DNA from: Planctomycetaceae bacterium
GTDB lineage: Bacteria; Planctomycetota; Phycisphaerae; Phycisphaerales; SM1A02
Assembly: GCA_947490615.1 (NCBI GenBank)
Contig: CANLHK010000001.1
Coordinates: 372,001-436,000 of the forward strand
Direction of reading: 5' to 3'
DNA: 64,000 bases
In this document: positions 3,986 to 12,571 of the stretch, piece by piece
How the letters are laid out: every line of letters begins with the position of its first letter
Position numbering within the stretch: position 1 is the stretch's first letter
The notes under the pieces: generated by a model
What the model was told of the DNA's origin: nothing
What the model saw: only the letters and a program-made list of their open reading frames with translations
Databases searched by the model: none
Made by a program: the position numbers and the translations under genes

Positions 3986-5560
3986 ATGAACCGCACGCGA
4001 CATGTCGAACCTAAGCCGATGGAAACCAATCCAATCGAACCCAAGTCCGCCAGCGGAAGTCCACAGGAGACGCTTGGAAAGGGAACACGCGCCGCGGCGA
4101 CTCCCGCCCCGCTGGTGACGCCAAGCGCGCTCGGCTCCAACGCCATGCACGCCACGCCTGCCAAGACGCCGCTTGAAAGGATGCAGCGGTTCAATCGCGA
4201 GCACATCCCTGAGCGCATGCTGCACGCCAAGGGCGCGGGCGCCTATGGCAGTTTCACCGTCACGCGCGATTGCACCAAGCTCAGTTGCGCGAAGTTGTTC
4301 GAGAAGGTCGGCAAGAAGACCGACGCGTTCGTTCGCTTCTCGATGTTCCACGGTGAGCACGGCTCGGCTGACAGCGAGCGCGACATCCGCGGTTTCGCGG
4401 TGCGCTTCTATACCGAAGATGGCAACTGGGATCTCATCTGCAACAACACGCCTGTCTACTTCATTCGCGATCCGAACAACTTCACGGCGCTCATCCACTC
4501 GCAGCAGCGTCATCCGCAGAGCAATCTGCGCGACCCCGACATGCAGTGGGAGTTCCTCAGCCACTCGCCCGAGAGCACGCACCAGATCACCTTCCTGTAC
4601 GGTGATAGCGGCTGTCCAGACGGATACAGGAGTTTCGATGGCTACGGAGGCAACACCTTCTCGCTGACCGATCTCATGGGACACCGCGTCTGGTGCAAGT
4701 TCCACCTGAGGTCGAAACAGCGCGCGCGCAATCTTAGTGACGAGCAGGCCGCACGCATGCGAGGCGGCGATCCCGACAGCGCGCAGCGTGATCTCTTTGA
4801 TGCGATCGCGCGTGGAGAGTTCCCCAAGTGGCGGCTCTGTGTGCAGACCATGACGAGCGAGGAGGCGCGCGGTCGCCTCACGAACCCGTTTGATGTGACC
4901 AAGACTTGGCCCGAGTCCGAGTTCCCGCTCATCGAGCTCGGTGAACTTGAGTTGAACCGCAATCCAGTCAACTACTTCGCCGAAGTCGAGCAGGCTGCGT
5001 TCAATCCTGCTGCGCTGATCCCAGGCATCGGCTCGAGTCCCGATCGCATGTTGCAGGCGAGGTTCGCCAGTTACTCCGATGCGCAGATGCACCGCCTCGG
5101 CGCGCAGGCTGGTGAAATCCCTGTGAACCGATCGCGCTGTCCGCTCTCGGGCTTCGCCTCGAGTGAGAGCGCCAGCAAGAGCACTTGCTCCCCCACCAAG
5201 TCGCCTGGAGGCTTCAACGCGGAGAGTCCATGTGATGCCAAGCCCGACGCGGTGTGGAAGCTCGCCACTGCGATTGTCGATCGCTTCCAAGCACTCAGCG
5301 ACCAGGATGACTACACCCAGGCGAGAGCGTTGTACCTCTCCCTTGATCCTGGACAACGAGAGCGGCTCTCGGTGCGCATCGCCGACAGTCTGGGTCTGAC
5401 ACGCATTGAGACGCAGACCAGGCAGCTCGGCCACTTCTTCCGCACCGACGAGGACTACGGCAAGCGCGTGGCGATGCATCTTGGCATCGATGTCACCAAG
5501 TCGATGCTCGCGCTGTGTCCGCCTGCGACGCAACAGGCCGCGCTGGCCGCGTCGCACTGA
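3986..5560 (+). CDS. katA: Haem catalase
   Basis: This is a monofunctional haem catalase of 524 residues that dismutates H2O2. Catalytic His80 lies in HAKGAGAYG, the distal Asn in CNNTPVYFIRD (153/154), and the haem-ligand Tyr363 with its upstream Arg359 in RFASYSD. The core up to about residue 380 is typical. The stretch FSMFHGE replaces the usual FSTVAGE. After the usual IPVNR.RCP, the segment of about 40 residues is Ser/Cys-rich and unlike the common catalase sequence, and is followed by the helical C-terminal region. The N-terminal 50 residues are Pro/Thr-rich with no clear signal peptide. The gene runs tail to tail with an OsmC gene 19 bp away, which suggests a peroxide-defence neighbourhood. 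Confidence 0.95.
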   Translation: MNRTRHVEPKPMETNPIEPKSASGSPQETLGKGTRAAATPAPLVTPSALGSNAMHATPAKTPLERMQRFNREHIPERMLHAKGAGAYGSFTVTRDCTKLSCAKLFEKVGKKTDAFVRFSMFHGEHGSADSERDIRGFAVRFYTEDGNWDLICNNTPVYFIRDPNNFTALIHSQQRHPQSNLRDPDMQWEFLSHSPESTHQITFLYGDSGCPDGYRSFDGYGGNTFSLTDLMGHRVWCKFHLRSKQRARNLSDEQAARMRGGDPDSAQRDLFDAIARGEFPKWRLCVQTMTSEEARGRLTNPFDVTKTWPESEFPLIELGELELNRNPVNYFAEVEQAAFNPAALIPGIGSSPDRMLQARFASYSDAQMHRLGAQAGEIPVNRSRCPLSGFASSESASKSTCSPTKSPGGFNAESPCDAKPDAVWKLATAIVDRFQALSDQDDYTQARALYLSLDPGQRERLSVRIADSLGLTRIETQTRQLGHFFRTDEDYGKRVAMHLGIDVTKSMLALCPPATQQAALAASH

Positions 5561-5579: not shown

Positions 5580-5990
5580 TCAACCGGTGTAGACCCATTC
5601 GATCGGAGTCTCGACGCTTGCGTCGAGGCTCTTTCGAACTGGGCAATCTTCCGCGGCCCGCTCAAGCACCGCGCGCTGCGGATGGTCCGCCGCGAGTGGA
5701 ACCGTCACGACGGTGCGCAGACTCGCAATGCGGCGCGGTGCCGACTTGGTCATTTCCTTCTCGCAGCGCACCGTCATGCCCGTGAGATCGATGCCGAGTT
5801 TTCCAGCGTGAATCCCCATGAGCGTCGCCATGCAGGTCGCCAGTGCCGCACCAACGAGATCCGTCGGCGAGAACCGCTCGCCCTTGCCGTGATTGTCGAC
5901 GGGCGCGTCAGTCTGAATCGTGCTGCGCGAAGGAGCATGGACTGCGTCGCAACGAAGATTGCCGAGGTAACGAACGGTGGTTTCGACCAT
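5580..5990 (-). CDS. OsmC/Ohr-family peroxide-detoxifying protein
   Basis: The protein is 136 residues, the usual OsmC size. The family uses a pair of cysteines to reduce organic hydroperoxides. Both can be seen: Cys53 in ALATCMATLMG and Cys116 in EDCPVRKSL. The segment GKGERFSPTDLVGAAL before the first Cys is typical of the family. OsmC, Ohr and YhfA subgroups cannot be told apart safely here. The gene is convergent with the catalase gene and lies 74 bp downstream of a minus-strand cluster (7663-6065), with which it may share a transcript. Confidence 0.85.
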   Translation of the reverse strand: MVETTVRYLGNLRCDAVHAPSRSTIQTDAPVDNHGKGERFSPTDLVGAALATCMATLMGIHAGKLGIDLTGMTVRCEKEMTKSAPRRIASLRTVVTVPLAADHPQRAVLERAAEDCPVRKSLDASVETPIEWVYTG

Positions 5991-6349: not shown

Positions 6350-7215
6350 GAGGTTGGACCGCCACGGTGGCTCTGACCACGCCCGACGAGTTGAATCCCT
6401 GGGTGCAGCAGCTCGATCTTGCGCTCCTTGTAGAGAGAGCCGATGGCTTGCTTGAAGGCTTTCTTGCTCACGCCAAAGCGTGCGCGAATCGCCTCAGGAT
6501 CGCTCGAGTCATCGAGGTTCAACCGCCCACCAACGCGCTCGAGTTCGGCAAGCAGCGTGGCCGTGAGCGGCACGACGCGCTGGTATCCCTCTTGATCGAG
6601 GCTCAGATCGATCTTGCCATCTTCGCGGATCGATCGAACGAACCCACGGAGTCGCGCGCCAATCTTGAGTGGACCCGAGAGGTTGGCGCGGTACAAGAGC
6701 CCGCGATGCTGACCTTGGACGATGGCGTTGTAACCAAGATCCGTCTCTTCGAAGATGAGAAGGTCGACGGGCATCCCCTCTGGGTAGCGCGGCTCTTCGC
6801 GGCTCAAGTACTTCTTCAAGAGCGTGCTGGCGATGATGCGATCGGTGTCGGGATCAATCACGACTGCCACGACGACATCGTCGCCGATCTGCACCTTCGG
6901 CTTCTGTTCCCGATACGGCAGCAACAGGTCCTTGCCCAAGCCCCAATCGAGAAAGGCACCCGCGCGCTCGTGGATGTCCTTCACATGCATGCAGGCAAAC
7001 TCACCGACGCACGCGCGCGGCCGCTCGGTGGTCGCGACCAAGCGATCCTCGGAGTCGCGATAGACGAAGACTTCAAGTTCGTCACCGACGCGCAGATCGC
7101 GCGGGATGTAGCGGCCAGGCAACAGCAACTCGCCGAGATCACCGCCGTCGAGGTACATGCCCGACTGCGTCTCACGAACTGCCACAAGGGTGTTGAAGCG
7201 ACCGAGTCGCGCCAT
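6346..7215 (-). CDS. CvfB/YitL-like S1 RNA-binding protein
   Basis: The protein is 289 residues with tandem S1-like OB folds and a C-terminal winged-helix-like segment. This is the layout of CvfB (YitL), an RNA-binding regulator in Firmicutes and others. Recognisable parts are MARLGRFNTLVAVRET at the start, the stretch GLGKDLLLPYREQ near residue 90, a domain with GARLRGFVRSIREDGKIDLSL near 200, and FGVSKKAFKQAIGSLYKERK near 255. An in-frame ATG far upstream (7476) would overlap the isomerase gene. The start at 7215, 13 bases after that gene's stop, fits better and matches family N-termini. The gene is second in a three-gene operon. Confidence 0.85.
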   Translation of the reverse strand: MARLGRFNTLVAVRETQSGMYLDGGDLGELLLPGRYIPRDLRVGDELEVFVYRDSEDRLVATTERPRACVGEFACMHVKDIHERAGAFLDWGLGKDLLLPYREQKPKVQIGDDVVVAVVIDPDTDRIIASTLLKKYLSREEPRYPEGMPVDLLIFEETDLGYNAIVQGQHRGLLYRANLSGPLKIGARLRGFVRSIREDGKIDLSLDQEGYQRVVPLTATLLAELERVGGRLNLDDSSDPEAIRARFGVSKKAFKQAIGSLYKERKIELLHPGIQLVGRGQSHRGGPTS

Positions 7216-7228
7216 CGATGGATTGACC

Positions 7229-7663
7229 TCACTCGCCAAGGACGACTTCGGTGATGGCGTCGCCCGCGCGAATCGCGTCGATGACTTCGAGGCCTGCCGT
7301 GACCTTGCCAAAGCAGGTGTGATTGCGGTCAAGATGCGCGGTGTTGGCGCGGCTGTGGCAGACGAAGAACTGCGAGCCACCCGTGTCGCGACCAGCGTGG
7401 GCCATCGAGAGCACACCGCGGTCGTGGCGTTGGTTGCCGCCTTCGAGTTCGCACTTGATCTTCCATCCTGGACCACCCGAACCCGTGCCGTTCGGGCAGC
7501 CGCCCTGAATCACGAAGTTGGGAATCACGCGGTGGAAGGTCAGTCCGTTGTAGAACCCGTCCTTGGCGAGCTTGCGGAAGTTCGCGACGGTGTTCGGCGC
7601 GTCGGCGTCGAAGAACTCGACGGTCATGTCGCCCTTGGCGGTCTTGATGATGGCTGTAGACAT
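7229..7663 (-). CDS. Cyclophilin-type peptidyl-prolyl cis-trans isomerase
   Basis: This 144-residue single-domain cyclophilin speeds cis-trans isomerisation of Xaa-Pro bonds. Family motifs are present: [15 protein letters not shown] with the catalytic Arg, the GVLSMAH segment, GSQFFVC, and [15 protein letters not shown]. There is no signal peptide, so it acts in the cytoplasm. The start at 7663 ([12 protein letters not shown]) was chosen because upstream in-frame codons add an unrelated stretch. It is the first gene of a run with the CvfB-like gene 13 bp downstream. No clear Shine-Dalgarno sequence precedes the ATG. Confidence 0.93.
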
Positions 7664-7709: not shown

Positions 7710-7746
7710 AAAAAAGCAGATGGGCCGCCCTAAGGCAGCCCATCTG
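7710..7746 (-). terminator. Rho-independent terminator of the 7799-9133 gene
   Basis: On the minus strand there is a GC-rich hairpin (arms CAGATGGGC at 7717-7725 and its complement at 7738-7746, with a further GCC/GGC pairing inside), followed by six U at 7710-7715. It lies 53 bases beyond the stop of the secreted-protein gene ending at 7799 and separates it from the isomerase operon. Confidence 0.85.
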
Positions 7747-7798
7747 GTGTTCTTGGATTGGCACAGCGGTTTGCCGTGCTCGCAGACTTGGTCTGAGT

Positions 7799-9133
7799 TC
7801 AGAGTCCTGCGATGTCAGCCCAGTTGTAGATGTGCTCTCGGATGATCGCGTTGGTGGTCGCATTCCTGAGCACGAACCTAATCTGCCGGCGCAGCACTGG
7901 GTCTGCCAGCAGGTCGTCCCGGACATTGAAGGTCGCGCTGTCCGAAAGCGGATCAATGACCAGCACAGCGTTGAGGCTGAGGACTGGGCCAGTGAAGACA
8001 TCATTCGATCCGTACTGGTAGGTCAGCGAGTTACCTGCAACGGGAACGACCGTTCCGCGGAACTGAAGTCCTCGACCAGGCGTGAAGCGTGTCGCGCCGT
8101 CGATGAGTCCGACCCAACCGCCAACGGCAGGGTCAAAGGCGCCGTCGACTTCGATGGCCTCACCGAACATCACGTGCTCACCAATACCGTGTCCAACCAC
8201 CGCGACGAACGATCCGACGGGTGCATTGGCGGCCACCCACTCACGACTCAGAGGTGCACCAGCGATACCGATGATGTCCATTGGCATGCGTGGATCTTGA
8301 TTCAGGAGCACCAGGGTTTCGCCAATCACAAACGAGTCTGGTGTATTCGGGTTGCCGACCGCCGAGGCGACGAGGTTTCCGATGAGCACGGTCTCAGCGA
8401 TAATGACGTGCGCGAAGTAGCCCTTGGTGGGGAAGTCTGGGATCTTGTACTCAACGCCCTTGGCATCGACATACACCGATCCTGCCGCGAGGAGCGTGGC
8501 GCCGTTTGAGGCGGGGTAACGCCAGAAGCGGCGAGGTGGCGGCGGCGAGTTCGGTACTGGGTACCCGCCAGTTTCGGTTCGAATGCCGATCTGCCCGAGG
8601 AAGTTCTCTGGGAGCGTTCCTGCTGGGTACATCGCATAGGCGTTGCGCACCAGGAAGAAGTAGGCGTCTTCGATGCTCTTCTCGGTTTGCGGCGAGCGAT
8701 CAAGACCTGGGGCCACGGCGCCACGCGCTTCCGAGGTGCTGTACATCGAACGCGCAGGACCGAAGCGAATCGTTCCCGCTTCGCCATTGGTGTCTTGGAC
8801 ATAATCTCGGAGCACCGCATTGGTGTCAGTGAGTCGGTCAAAGGTCGCGGCGGTGATCTCACCGAAGCTGACCTCTTCGTGGTTCACGATCTGGGTGTTG
8901 CCGAGCACAAACTCCACGCCGTTGAGCGTCGCAGGAATCGTGACGCGGGAGCCACCAGCGAAGATTTGCCGATTCGGCGCATCGATGTTCCAGATTGATC
9001 CTTCGATCACGAAACTCTCGAGTGGTGCCTTGAGTGTGACGACGGTGCCGTCGTGCAGGACAGCAGTTTGCGAAAGTGCAACGGTCGCTGCAGAGAGCGT
9101 GGCAAGACTTGCCAAGTAACCCGGAAGGCGCAT
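7799..9133 (-). CDS. Secreted protein of unknown family, paralogue of 9471-10805
   Basis: The protein is 444 residues with a signal peptide (residues 1-21, MRLPGYLASLATLSAATVAL). I do not recognise the family. Residues 23-80 (AVLHDGTVVTLKAPLESF..., GVEFVLGNTQIVN) look like a small beta barrel of OB type. The middle holds TIRFGPARSMYSTSEARGA, a helical DAYFFLVRNAYAMYPAGTLP segment, IPDFPTKGYFAHVIIAE, and NPNTPDSFVIGETLVLLNQDPRMP. The C-terminus is beta-rich and ends in NWADIAGL. No PEP-CTERM, dockerin or membrane anchor is present, so it is probably released to the periplasm or outside. The neighbour upstream has exactly the same length and is clearly related along its whole length. The start at 9133 was chosen over 9178 because it puts the signal peptide first. 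Confidence 0.75.
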   Translation of the reverse strand: MRLPGYLASLATLSAATVALSQTAVLHDGTVVTLKAPLESFVIEGSIWNIDAPNRQIFAGGSRVTIPATLNGVEFVLGNTQIVNHEEVSFGEITAATFDRLTDTNAVLRDYVQDTNGEAGTIRFGPARSMYSTSEARGAVAPGLDRSPQTEKSIEDAYFFLVRNAYAMYPAGTLPENFLGQIGIRTETGGYPVPNSPPPPRRFWRYPASNGATLLAAGSVYVDAKGVEYKIPDFPTKGYFAHVIIAETVLIGNLVASAVGNPNTPDSFVIGETLVLLNQDPRMPMDIIGIAGAPLSREWVAANAPVGSFVAVVGHGIGEHVMFGEAIEVDGAFDPAVGGWVGLIDGATRFTPGRGLQFRGTVVPVAGNSLTYQYGSNDVFTGPVLSLNAVLVIDPLSDSATFNVRDDLLADPVLRRQIRFVLRNATTNAIIREHIYNWADIAGL

Positions 9134-9373
9134 GGTGACCCCAGAAATACCGCCTAAACCGATAGAGGACGACTTCACCGGAAAGGCAGCGTGTGCGAAC
9201 TTTGATGCGTGCGGGACGCCGCAGGCACCGAGCCCCGATCAAACTCCGACACCTGCCGACGATTGGCTGTGTCGAAATGATGCGAGTGCCCATGGAGGTT
9301 GTCGCGCAAACTCTTGGCTGCAAGGCAATTCACTCGCAAATCACGGAAAACAACTCCGTGAGTGCGTGCGCCG
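9134..9373. other. Intergenic leader and promoter region between the secreted paralogues
   Basis: No gene is supported here. It should hold the promoter and leader of the gene starting at 9133. A small perfect hairpin, TCACGGA/TCCGTGA (9341-9361), lies next to the terminator of the upstream paralogue. I could not fix a convincing -35/-10 pair. Confidence 0.4.
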
Positions 9374-9410
9374 AAAAAAACCGACGGGCCGCACGATGGC
9401 GGCCCGTCGG
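9374..9410 (-). terminator. Rho-independent terminator of the 9471-10805 gene
   Basis: On the minus strand the arms CCGACGGGCCGC and GCGGCCCGTCGG form a 12-bp perfect stem (9381-9410) followed by seven U (9374-9380). It lies 60 bases past the stop at 9471, so the two secreted paralogues are separate transcription units. Confidence 0.9.
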
Positions 9411-9470
9411 TGGAATCTCAGAAGTCAGACCCCCCGATGGCACGGAGTGTTGACCCTGAGTGCGCGGCAA

Positions 9471-10805
9471 TTAGAGGCCGAGGATGTCAGCCCAGTTGAA
9501 CACGGTCTCGCGAATGATGACTCCCGATCCCGTCTCCCGCAGCGTGAACTTGATCTGGCGACGAAGCACTGGATCGGCCGTCGGCTGATCCCGCACATCG
9601 AAGCGCGCCGTGTTGAGAAGCGGATCAACGATCAGAATCGGATTCAGGCTGATGACGGGACCCGTGAACACATCGTTCAGGCCGTACTGGTAGGTCAAGG
9701 TGTTACCCGCAATCGGGACAACATCGCCGCGGAAGCTCAGACCGCGTCCTGGATTGAATCCCCAGGTGCGCTCGACGACCGTGACCCAGCCGCCAACCGC
9801 TGGATCGAACAGATCCGCTGCCTCGACTGCTTCGGCGAACATCACATGCTCGCCGATCATGTGACCGACGACCGCGATGAAACTGCCTGGCAGCGCGGCT
9901 TGGGAGAAGTACTCCTTGCTTACCGGCGAGCCTGCGAGACCGATGATGTCGAGCGGCATGCGCGGATCCTGATTCATCAGGACCAGCGTGGTGCCGATCA
10001 CGAAGGAGTCTGGCGTGTTGGGATTGCCGATGGCAGCGGCCTTGAGGTTTCCGATGCAGACATTCTCGGCGATGAGCACATGCGCGAGGAAGCCCTTGAT
10101 TGGGAAGTCTGGAATGTTGTACTCGTTGCCCGCAGCATCGACATACACCGATCCTTGTCCAAGGACCGTCGCGCCCGTCGAGCTCGGATAGCGCCAGAAA
10201 CGGCGTGCTGGCGGCGTGCCATTCGGATTCGCGAACGCGCCCGTCTCGGTACGGATACCGATGCGCCCGAGGAAGTCCACGGGAAGCGTGCCCGCGGGAT
10301 ACATCGCAAAGGCATTGCGGACGAGGAAGAAGTAGGTGTCTTCAATCGCCTTCTCAATCTGCGGCGAGCGGTCGAGACCCGTCGCGATCGCGCCACGCGC
10401 CTCCGAGGTGCTGTAGAGCGAGCGTGCAGGGCCGAAGCGAATCGTGCCCGCTTCGCCAGCGGTGTCGACAATCGCGTCGCGGTTGACCGCGTTGGCATCG
10501 GTGAGGTTGGAGAAGGTCTCGGCGGTGATCGGCCCGAGGCTCACTTCTTCGCCGTTGACGATCTGCGTGTTGCCGAGCACAAACTCCACGCCGTTGAGCG
10601 TCGATGGAATCGTGATGCGGTAGCCCGTCGAGATGAGCTGACGGTTGGCGACATCGATGTTCCACATCGGACCCTCGATCGAGAAGGTCTCAAGCGGAGC
10701 TTTGAGTGTGACGACGGTGCCGTTGTGCAAAACGGCACTTTGCGCGAGCGCTAGGCCGGCAATGGAAGCCGATGCCGCGCCCGCGAGCAGATGGGAGAAG
10801 CGCAT
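9471..10805 (-). CDS. Secreted protein of unknown family, paralogue of 7799-9133
   Basis: The protein is 444 residues. Residues 1-22 are a signal peptide (MRFSHLLAGAASASIAGLALAQ). It aligns without obvious gaps with the 7799-9133 product. Shared blocks include DGT/NGTVVTLKAPLE, NGVEFVLGNTQIVN, TIRFGPARS.YSTSEARGA, NPNTPDSFVIG, NQDPRMP.DIIG and a NWADI.GL end. Residues 23-80 look like an OB-type beta barrel. No catalytic signature, anchor or repeat that I know is visible. The long upstream extension to 10925 lacks coding character, so the ATG at 10805 is preferred. It has its own terminator at 9374-9410. Strong conservation after duplication suggests both copies are useful, perhaps in different conditions. 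Confidence 0.75.
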   Translation of the reverse strand: MRFSHLLAGAASASIAGLALAQSAVLHNGTVVTLKAPLETFSIEGPMWNIDVANRQLISTGYRITIPSTLNGVEFVLGNTQIVNGEEVSLGPITAETFSNLTDANAVNRDAIVDTAGEAGTIRFGPARSLYSTSEARGAIATGLDRSPQIEKAIEDTYFFLVRNAFAMYPAGTLPVDFLGRIGIRTETGAFANPNGTPPARRFWRYPSSTGATVLGQGSVYVDAAGNEYNIPDFPIKGFLAHVLIAENVCIGNLKAAAIGNPNTPDSFVIGTTLVLMNQDPRMPLDIIGLAGSPVSKEYFSQAALPGSFIAVVGHMIGEHVMFAEAVEAADLFDPAVGGWVTVVERTWGFNPGRGLSFRGDVVPIAGNTLTYQYGLNDVFTGPVISLNPILIVDPLLNTARFDVRDQPTADPVLRRQIKFTLRETGSGVIIRETVFNWADILGL

Positions 10806-11212
10806 AATGACCTCGAAAATGGTGTGTGAAGAAAGGGTGCGGGACGACCGACACTCGTTCTCGACGGGGACGACTGAAACAACTTGCGAGCAACCGGTCC
10901 TGGGGGAGGAAGAAGGAAGCCGCAATCACGCAACCGCAGCGCGGGGGAGCGCGACGGTTCATCTTGACCATGCCATCAACTTGATGTCAGGCAAGTGAAT
11001 TACCTACTCACCTAGAAAGATCGGGACTTGCGACAGAGTTTGGTTTCGCTGCGCGCCTGCAATTCTCTCCGCTGCAAGCGCCAGACTGTCGTGTCATCCC
11101 ATAATCGGATCTAGGAATCGACGCGCAAACGAGCCGCCGATTCATCGGCAGCAGAGTCACGCTGCAGACTCCAGATACACGCTCGCACGAGAATTCTTAC
11201 GAGCCCCTCTGC
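10806..11212. other. 407-bp intergenic region upstream of the secreted paralogue
   Basis: No open frame here has coding character. It must carry the promoter of the minus-strand gene at 10805. A partly symmetric AT-rich stretch lies near 10990-11015 (AGGTGA..TCACTTGCCT on the minus strand). No tRNA, known riboswitch or terminator was recognised. The region is long for this compact genome. Confidence 0.4.
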
Positions 11213-12571
11213 CTACGGAAACACCTCGCCAGGCATGCGATGGTTTGGCGCAGGCAATGTGTCGAGTGCGACTGGATTTGCCGACAGTCCTTGCATGGTG
11301 ATTCCAGCGTGGAGGAGCACAAGTCCGATCGGAAACAACCATCGCCAAGAGGAACGAGATTCGCCGCGATCACGCTCGAGCGCACAGAGAGTGGCGAGCA
11401 CGACGAGAAGAAACGGCTCGTGGTATCGCTGCCAGCTGTAGTAATTGGAACTCACCGCGGCGATGAACGCGACGATGGAAACCGTGAGAATCACGCGCTG
11501 CCGCGTGGTCACGCCGAGCAACGCCGACGCGAGCACCACGGCGCCAAGTGGCGCGGCGAACAACATCAGCACGCTGGTGCGCCGCGCGATGGTTGGTGCC
11601 ATGCCCACGATCGCCCACCAACCTGAGAAGCGGCCTGCAGCAGGATCGAGCGTCGTTTCAGGAACCGCCGCGAGCAGCACGCCGAGAATCAAGGCAAGTA
11701 CCAGCACGCCGCGCTCATCGCGCCACGCGCGCGTCAGAGTGCCCCAGAGCCACGGCGCGAATCCAATTGCCAGCACGCTGACCTGAAGCAGGATGAACGC
11801 TGGTGTCGCAAGATTGACTCCTTGGAGCTCCGACTGAAAGCGCGGCGGGGTCAAGCCGCCCCAGTGGCGCACGAACAGCGCGAGCACGACAAAGGCGGGG
11901 ACGGTGGCGAGCACCCACGGAAGTGTCCGGAAGGCGCGATCGACGAATCCACGCGCGGGCCGCGCGCCGCTGCCAACGAGAACCCAGCCTCCAACCCACA
12001 CCATCGCGGCGGCCCAGATGTGGACTTGTCGCACGCACACCAGAAGCACCAACAGAAGCGACGCAACGATGAGATGTTGAGCGCGCTTGGGTTCACGAAG
12101 TGTCAGAAACAGAATCGCCGCGACCAGCATCCACGCGAGGTTGTCTGGAAGAAGCCACGCTGCAGATCCCACGACATAGATCGACGCTATGAGCGGCAGC
12201 GTGAACAACACACCGCGCGCAACACCAACGCGCCGCGCCAACCACGCCGCAACGAGTCCAACGAACGCGCATCCCACCAGCATGCTGACCAAGCGAAGCG
12301 CTGTGTTGGAGTCGCCAACGAACTGCGCCACCGTCGCAAGAATGATGTGGTAGCCCGGGGTCGTCGCTGTGAGTGGGTTGCTCAGATCAAACCACGGGAA
12401 CGAATCCGCGAGCGCGCGAATGAATCGCTCGTGGTACGCGATCGAGTCGGACGCCGCGCGCCCGTTGTTGTTCCCCGCAACGATGAGCGCCATCGCGGGC
12501 ACGAAGAGCAGCATTGACGCCACAGCGCCAGCGGACAGTGAAGCGCGAGCACCGTGGTCACGCGTGGTCAT
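11213..12571 (-). CDS. Polytopic membrane protein, GT-C-like glycosyltransferase candidate
   Basis: The protein is 452 residues with about ten hydrophobic segments. The first loop after helix 1 contains an acidic and aromatic stretch (SDSIAYHERF, then SNPLTATTPGYH). Its position and the TTPGYH motif resemble GT-C enzymes such as the ALG10/PIG-M type, which transfer sugars from polyprenyl-phosphate donors outside the membrane. That match is by pattern only. The start at 12571 (MTTRDHGARAS) overlaps the end of the methyltransferase gene by 14 bases, so the two are coupled. The tail after the last helix is short. Confidence 0.6.
   Translation of the reverse strand: MTTRDHGARASLSAGAVASMLLFVPAMALIVAGNNNGRAASDSIAYHERFIRALADSFPWFDLSNPLTATTPGYHIILATVAQFVGDSNTALRLVSMLVGCAFVGLVAAWLARRVGVARGVLFTLPLIASIYVVGSAAWLLPDNLAWMLVAAILFLTLREPKRAQHLIVASLLLVLLVCVRQVHIWAAAMVWVGGWVLVGSGARPARGFVDRAFRTLPWVLATVPAFVVLALFVRHWGGLTPPRFQSELQGVNLATPAFILLQVSVLAIGFAPWLWGTLTRAWRDERGVLVLALILGVLLAAVPETTLDPAAGRFSGWWAIVGMAPTIARRTSVLMLFAAPLGAVVLASALLGVTTRQRVILTVSIVAFIAAVSSNYYSWQRYHEPFLLVVLATLCALERDRGESRSSWRWLFPIGLVLLHAGITMQGLSANPVALDTLPAPNHRMPGEVFP

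Follow-up and report, generated by a model that had tools for sequence, protein, structure and literature searches.

Extracellular multicopper oxidases (MCOs) of uncultured bacteria have been proposed to act in manganese, iodide and phenol oxidation, and the accessory proteins that might serve them are hardly known. Going by excerpts of the respective reports, the closest described systems are as follows. The iodide oxidase (IOX) of Iodidimonas and Roseovarius combines an extracellular MCO, IoxA, with the protein IoxC, the function of which is unknown, and SCO1-like and gsp (general secretion) genes lie close to its cluster (PMC9415286). In a second group, MopE, CorA and MbnP are the respective partners of the di-heme enzymes SACCP, CorB and MbnH; MopE is surface-associated and partly secreted, and one of its tryptophans is made into a kynurenine that forms part of a copper site (PMC3621798). 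In the third, the methanethiol oxidase operon, the gene order is mtoX, SCO1/senC and mauG, and the copper enzyme is SBP56 (PMC5739008). Here we examine a stretch of 64,000 nucleotides from a Planctomycetaceae bacterium (GCA_947490615.1, contig CANLHK010000001.1, positions 372,001 to 436,000; hereafter the window), and in it two adjacent minus-strand genes for related proteins of 444 residues each, P0002 upstream and P0001 downstream, which belong to a family that the libraries searched do not name. We propose that this family probably assists an extracellular copper-oxidase system as a secreted accessory or partner protein, where joint action, and its mode, are what we infer. What is observed is the family itself, the duplication of its gene, the purifying selection on the copies, the co-occurrence with an MCO and the gene neighbourhoods. 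A family that tracks one clade of MCOs is a concrete candidate for an accessory protein of such extracellular enzymes, and through it a connection between an extracellular oxidase, SCO1 and protein modification by di-heme enzymes can be put to the test.

The family and one clade of multicopper oxidases

An earlier note on this DNA, made from the letters alone, had considered the two proteins to be of an unrecognised family, and the searches of Pfam, NCBIfam and Protein Data Bank (PDB) sequences agree in yielding no credible relative. Neither P0001 nor P0002 matches any Pfam or NCBIfam family up to E 10; a phmmer search with P0002 found no sequence relative in the PDB, where a 23-row profile likewise gave nothing credible (best E 0.68); and the 23 relatives themselves reach Pfam at chance level only (three families with a single member each, the best at E 0.069). 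A description of the family was also not found in excerpts of the open-licence literature, which is weak evidence of absence. Judged by sequence, the family is unnamed and new to the libraries searched; the oxidase system that it appears to join is of an already known kind. Its distribution is patchy across Planctomycetota and Verrucomicrobiota. The window's own genome has the two window copies and no other member; the genomes with the family number 7 of 16 in the genus, 9 of 151 in the bacterial family (one of them, G484, with only a frame-broken remnant) and 15 of 392 in the phylum. A scan of the collection recovered 19 loci, with record titles of Planctomycetota, Verrucomicrobiota (Akkermansiaceae, Verrucomicrobiaceae and Prosthecobacter) and one 'Thiotrichaceae' bin (L035), the bin names in this list not all being reliable. 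The L035 locus (7758-11606) encodes a protein of 1283 residues in which the family sequence is fused to an alanine-rich stretch of great length and a second immunoglobulin-like (Ig-like) end. No relatives of P0002 were found by tblastn on plasmids or phages, and none by the 23-row alignment on viral contigs.

The presence of the family coincides with that of a particular MCO. We counted this MCO as present at E <= 1e-100 within the bacterial family and at a profile E <= 1e-80 across the phylum, both thresholds being of our choosing. On these terms 10 genomes of the bacterial family, out of 151, have it, among them every one of the 9 with the gene family (hypergeometric probability 1.1e-13, or 8.1e-12 for the 8 genomes with intact members only); the di-heme enzyme is found in 11 of the 151, including 8 of the 9. 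As a control, any Cu-oxidase_2 domain at all occurs in 68 of the 151; hence, what the family follows is a single MCO clade. The same holds at narrower and wider scales. In the genus, 6 of the 16 genomes have the MCO; all 6 belong to the 7 that carry the family, the 9 family-free genomes being without it. In the phylum, the MCO profile is matched in 31 of the 392 genomes and shared with 14 of the 15 that carry the family (2e-16); counted by genus, 6 of the 7 family-bearing genera fall within the 19 of 266 that have the MCO (3.9e-7). Among family-bearing genomes of other groups, the MCO profile finds a match (E <= 1e-20) in 20 of 22.

The gene neighbourhoods point in the same direction: beyond the window's subclade, the family gene is often part of a cluster. 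In a survey of 36 rows, equivalent to 35 distinct stretches, some with short flanks, an MCO lies within 10 kb of the family gene in 8 of the 35, and in 5 of these within 0.8 kb. SCO1 is found at 7 of the 8 MCO-linked loci and a MauG/MbnH-like di-heme enzyme at 4. The linkage recurs in three separate lineages, namely the bacterial family of the window (L024, L076 and L095), Verrucomicrobiota (L027) and another planctomycete family (L086). The order at L024 is di-heme enzyme (CCP_MauG, PF03150, E 2.8e-24), a PEP-CTERM-like protein, the family gene, MCO (PF07731, E 1.5e-18) and SCO1 (PF02630, E 1.4e-7), the second of these proteins having no Pfam match and a PEP-CTERM-like end as read by eye. At L027 the order is di-heme enzyme, family, MCO and SCO1, and at L086 the family gene is followed on the opposite strand by an MCO with cadherin/Ig repeats and by SCO1. 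One genome (G341, locus L076) has two family copies inside a single MCO-SCO1-di-heme cluster, and in G484 the frame-broken remnant sits between a di-heme gene and an MCO (contig C10; L103, ~7071-7243), an apparent case of recent loss of the family gene inside the cluster. Altogether, a di-heme gene lies near the family gene at 5 distinct loci among the 35 stretches (L017, L023, L024, L027 and L076/L077), the window locus not being one of them. The L024 MCO has bilirubin oxidase and CotA as its nearest PDB entries; the di-heme proteins have MbnH as their best match, yet score far below its cut-off. The probability of finding 8 of 35 by chance is 2e-7 if the rate is that of the window's genome, with 3 MCO places per 3.26 Mb, and 1e-3 at 10 places per genome. 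The genes of about 800 residues upstream of the family at L028, L035, L078 and L084 were considered as a possible shared di-heme gene and rejected, their Pfam matches being TPR, GlnD, peptidase S9 and PNPase.

Given the co-occurrence, the clusters and the analogies with methanethiol oxidase, iodide oxidase and MopE, we take a partner role as the most likely one. Briefly, the oxidase would be a bilirubin-oxidase/CotA-like MCO, whose gene is accompanied by one for a copper chaperone of the SCO1 type and, at half of the linked loci, by one for a MauG/MbnH-like di-heme enzyme. Its partner from the family would act outside the cytoplasm, where it might hold the MCO or its substrate, or might present copper to the MCO. 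The window pair, a local duplication, would have left, or never sat in, the oxidase clusters, which lie on other contigs.

Several observations weigh against this proposal. Of the 35 stretches, 27 show no MCO, among them the five that make up the window's subclade (the window, W, and L012-L015), and none is seen despite at least 5 kb on both sides at L028, L029, L031, L033, L079, L080, L083 and L084; other relatives adjoin type II secretion genes instead. At the genome level, two genomes that carry the family, G410 and that of L035 (the bin named Thiotrichaceae), give no match to the MCO even when E 1e-20 is allowed; G009, a bin that is 82% complete, has the family without the MCO; and the family is lacking in G464 and, across the phylum, in 17 of the 31 genomes that have the MCO. 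Furthermore, the co-occurrence probabilities given above are too small, since genomes with shared ancestry do not count as independent and we set the E thresholds ourselves. The majority of loci with no MCO nearby would suit an account in which the family is a general surface or matrix protein exported via type II secretion, which comes to lie near MCOs only through a shared aerobic, surface-attached lifestyle. Secretin and GspK-like genes near L028 and L084, and by homology near L031, L082 and L085 (planctomycetes and Verrucomicrobiota), also fit such a protein, as do OB- and Ig-like parts with no evident catalytic domain. Yet the family tracks a single MCO clade (9 within 10) in spite of the wide occurrence of Cu-oxidase_2 domains (68 of 151), and family and MCO are close neighbours in three lineages; we therefore regard this account as somewhat unlikely and retain the partner role.

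The tandem pair and its history

The features of the locus, in window coordinates, are these:

9471..10805, minus strand: upstream copy P0002, 444 residues, 1335 bases including the stop
7799..9133, minus strand: downstream copy P0001, 444 residues, 1335 bases including the stop
10662..10664, minus strand: codon of Trp48 in the upstream copy, computed from the gene start at 10805
8990..8992, minus strand: codon of Trp48 in the downstream copy, computed from the gene start at 9133
9380..9411, minus strand: terminator hairpin and T run after the upstream copy, -29.5 kcal/mol, z -5.8
~7717..7746, minus strand: terminator hairpin and T run after the downstream copy, -30.5 kcal/mol for a 61-nucleotide stretch, z -4.5
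7229..7663, minus strand: cyclophilin-type peptidyl-prolyl isomerase adjoining the pair, local synteny conserved

What the earlier note had read from the letters at this locus stands. The coordinates and the sequence agree with two minus-strand neighbours of the same length with signal peptides; the colinear blocks NGVEFVLGNTQIVN, NPNTPDSFVIG and NWADI.GL are present in both copies; and each gene is followed by a strong terminator of its own, with hairpin and T run. The absence of a dockerin or PEP-CTERM tail was likewise borne out, in that a Pfam scan of both proteins gave neither a dockerin nor any other Pfam domain, and inspection of their C-termini revealed no PEP-CTERM-like or other known sorting tail. 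Both N-termini look, by eye, like Sec signal peptides cut before a glutamine at about residue 22, from which we read that both proteins are probably exported from the cytoplasm.

The two proteins are identical at 310 of 444 residues (70%) in a gap-free alignment of 628 bits, which excludes a chance likeness. This identity is even along the length, at 21 to 31 residues per 37-residue block, and divergence by the NG86 method amounts to 0.233 at nonsynonymous (dN) against 1.081 at synonymous sites (dS); hence, the copies have diverged under purifying selection, and the suggestion that it acts on the entire length is upheld by the same dN and dS together with the even spread. That the lengths are equal is also owed to a duplication that was fairly recent and free of gaps: P0001 and P0002 are sisters in a tree of 35 proteins (support 100/99), where they are closest to the first copies of three genomes, G008, G009 and G014. 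Of the second copies, those of G009 and G014 group on an older branch of their own, and that of G008 stands apart as well. It follows from this branching that the tandem layout at this locus, the landmarks of which are cyclophilin, S1/CvfB and OsmC genes close by, is shared within the genus and that the window pair is a lineage-specific, later duplicate. Tandem copies recur in G008, G009 and G014, at L029 and in G394. In the last of these (L082), small open reading frames at 7893-8174 and 10195-10476, between the tandem copies, carry an Ig-like module resembling the C-terminus of the family.

As for the other genes at the locus, the cyclophilin-type isomerase displays conserved synteny only, and we do not argue that it belongs to the oxidase system. 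A catalase gene (3986-5560) and an OsmC-like gene (5583-5990) lie within a few kb of the pair; the OsmC-like gene is retained near the locus in three relatives and a catalase homologue in one.

Four MCO genes are present in the window's genome. They occupy three places, on contigs C3 and C6, and are accompanied there by SCO1 and di-heme genes. On C6 (~135600-152200; L101, L102) the cluster runs MCO-SCO1-SCO1-di-heme-MCO-MCO, and C3 (46774-48411; L100) has a separate MCO-SCO1 pair; one MCO of this genome has an internal TAA stop, and some of the di-heme matches fall in short neighbouring frames. In a relative, G013, about 23 kb of contig C121 (7287-30293) carry seven related multicopper oxidases, with di-heme matches in between. 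As the tandem pair is on contig C1, unlinked from these clusters, its putative partners are present yet unlinked, and the window copies, not being linked to the oxidase, are the least direct members of the family. This separation could be taken to mean that the pair stopped serving the oxidase and assumed a new task after duplication and departure from the cluster, a reading in keeping with the cyclophilin-side locus of G008, G009, G013 and G014, where one or two copies occur and no MCO is nearby. Such a change of task is possible, though we lean against it: 6 of the 7 family-bearing genomes of the genus keep the MCO, and the 9 family-free ones have none.

Predicted fold and conserved residues

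P0002 comprises a signal peptide (residues ~1-21), a mixed N-terminal part (~23-244), an OB-like part (~245-331) and an Ig-like part (338-444). An AlphaFold2 model (m471934de905f, with a context of 23 sequences) has a mean predicted local distance difference test score (pLDDT) of 87 and a predicted template-modelling score (pTM) of 0.81; the N-terminal part modelled alone (residues 23-336) reaches a pLDDT of 90. In structural comparisons, residues 338-444 have Ig-like domains as their matches (best Z 8.2, root-mean-square deviation 3.0, 90 residues aligned; for SiiE, Z 8.1, deviation 2.1, 78 aligned), and residues ~245-331 (fragment ~223-309) resemble the OB proteins PriB, SSB and LysRS at low Z scores of 5.3 to 4.5. 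Residues 1-220 have no clear fold match, and Foldseek returned no match at E <= 0.001 for either the whole model or the N-terminal part, families outside its lists not being excluded. The model suggests that the proteins of this family are mostly beta-strand, with an OB-like part at ~245-331 and an Ig-like end at 338-444. The earlier note had placed an OB-like domain first in the protein; OB folds did come up in the comparison, but for the second half of the N-terminal part and at low Z, the first 220 residues being unmatched. That the OB-like part is internally duplicated (residues 23-244 against 243-332) was also considered and rejected at an hhalign probability of 0.4%.

Ten positions are fixed in all 34 relatives: E44, D103, R128, Y206, Y221, Y229, E247, N278, D280 and R282. 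So many invariant charged, polar and aromatic positions, beyond the apparent need of a scaffold, might betray an enzyme or binding protein that acts on the substrate of the oxidase, for example a phenolic polymer, and not on the oxidase. We consider this unlikely, as neither sequence nor fold reveals a known catalytic domain.

The most widely kept tryptophan is W48, present in 29 of the 34 relatives; the other 5, all of one planctomycete family, have F or Y there. This residue allows a bolder version of the partner role, in which MauG/MbnH-like di-heme enzymes would have in this family a new kind of partner, the fourth. Such an enzyme would oxidise Trp48 of the secreted protein to make a copper site, as with the conversion of tryptophan to kynurenine in MopE; the candidate modified protein, along with SCO1, would supply or couple copper to the adjoining extracellular MCO; and members with the cluster elsewhere in their genome, such as the window pair, would be modified in trans. 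We set this version out as a long shot.

Comparison with known systems

Plasmid-borne MCO regions offer a first comparison. Such regions were seen in Limimaricola, in Fuscovulum (with type II secretion genes, MCO and SCO) and on plasmids of a Comamonadaceae and an Erythrobacteraceae. A plasmid cluster of Skermanella mucosa has an MCO (45% identical to that of L024), an SCO gene and P0003, an Ig-like protein that reads as secreted. P0003 was rejected as a member of the family, because its best E in whole-sequence profile searches is 0.75 to 2.6 and the alignment lies mostly at the Ig-like end. Profile searches found no family members in any of these MCO plasmid regions, including that of Skermanella.

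Turning to the characterised systems, the iodide oxidase is like the loci described here in uniting a secreted protein, an MCO, SCO1 and, at some loci, type II secretion genes. IoxC, at 71 kDa as against the 444 residues of the family, was compared by description, so that we would liken the two in role, not by homology. The oxidases differ as well: bilirubin oxidase and CotA are close to the MCO found in this work, whereas IoxA is called distant from CotA in the excerpted account (PMC9415286). In the methanethiol oxidase operon, too, a copper enzyme has SCO1 and a MauG-like di-heme protein for neighbours; this enzyme is SBP56 and not an MCO, and the excerpt of its report describes no relative of the family (PMC5739008).

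MopE, CorA and MbnP are comparable in another respect. No NCBIfam match to MbnP (TIGR04052, as numbered in PMC3621798) was obtained up to E 10 for P0001 or P0002, the presence of this model in the release being unchecked; kynurenine in MbnP is reportedly the subject of a study by Manesis from 2021. The likeness to these three proteins is in the arrangement of the genes, each set beside that of a MauG/MbnH-like di-heme enzyme, with a di-heme gene lying near at five loci of the present family, and in the one conserved tryptophan that the family has as a candidate for modification.

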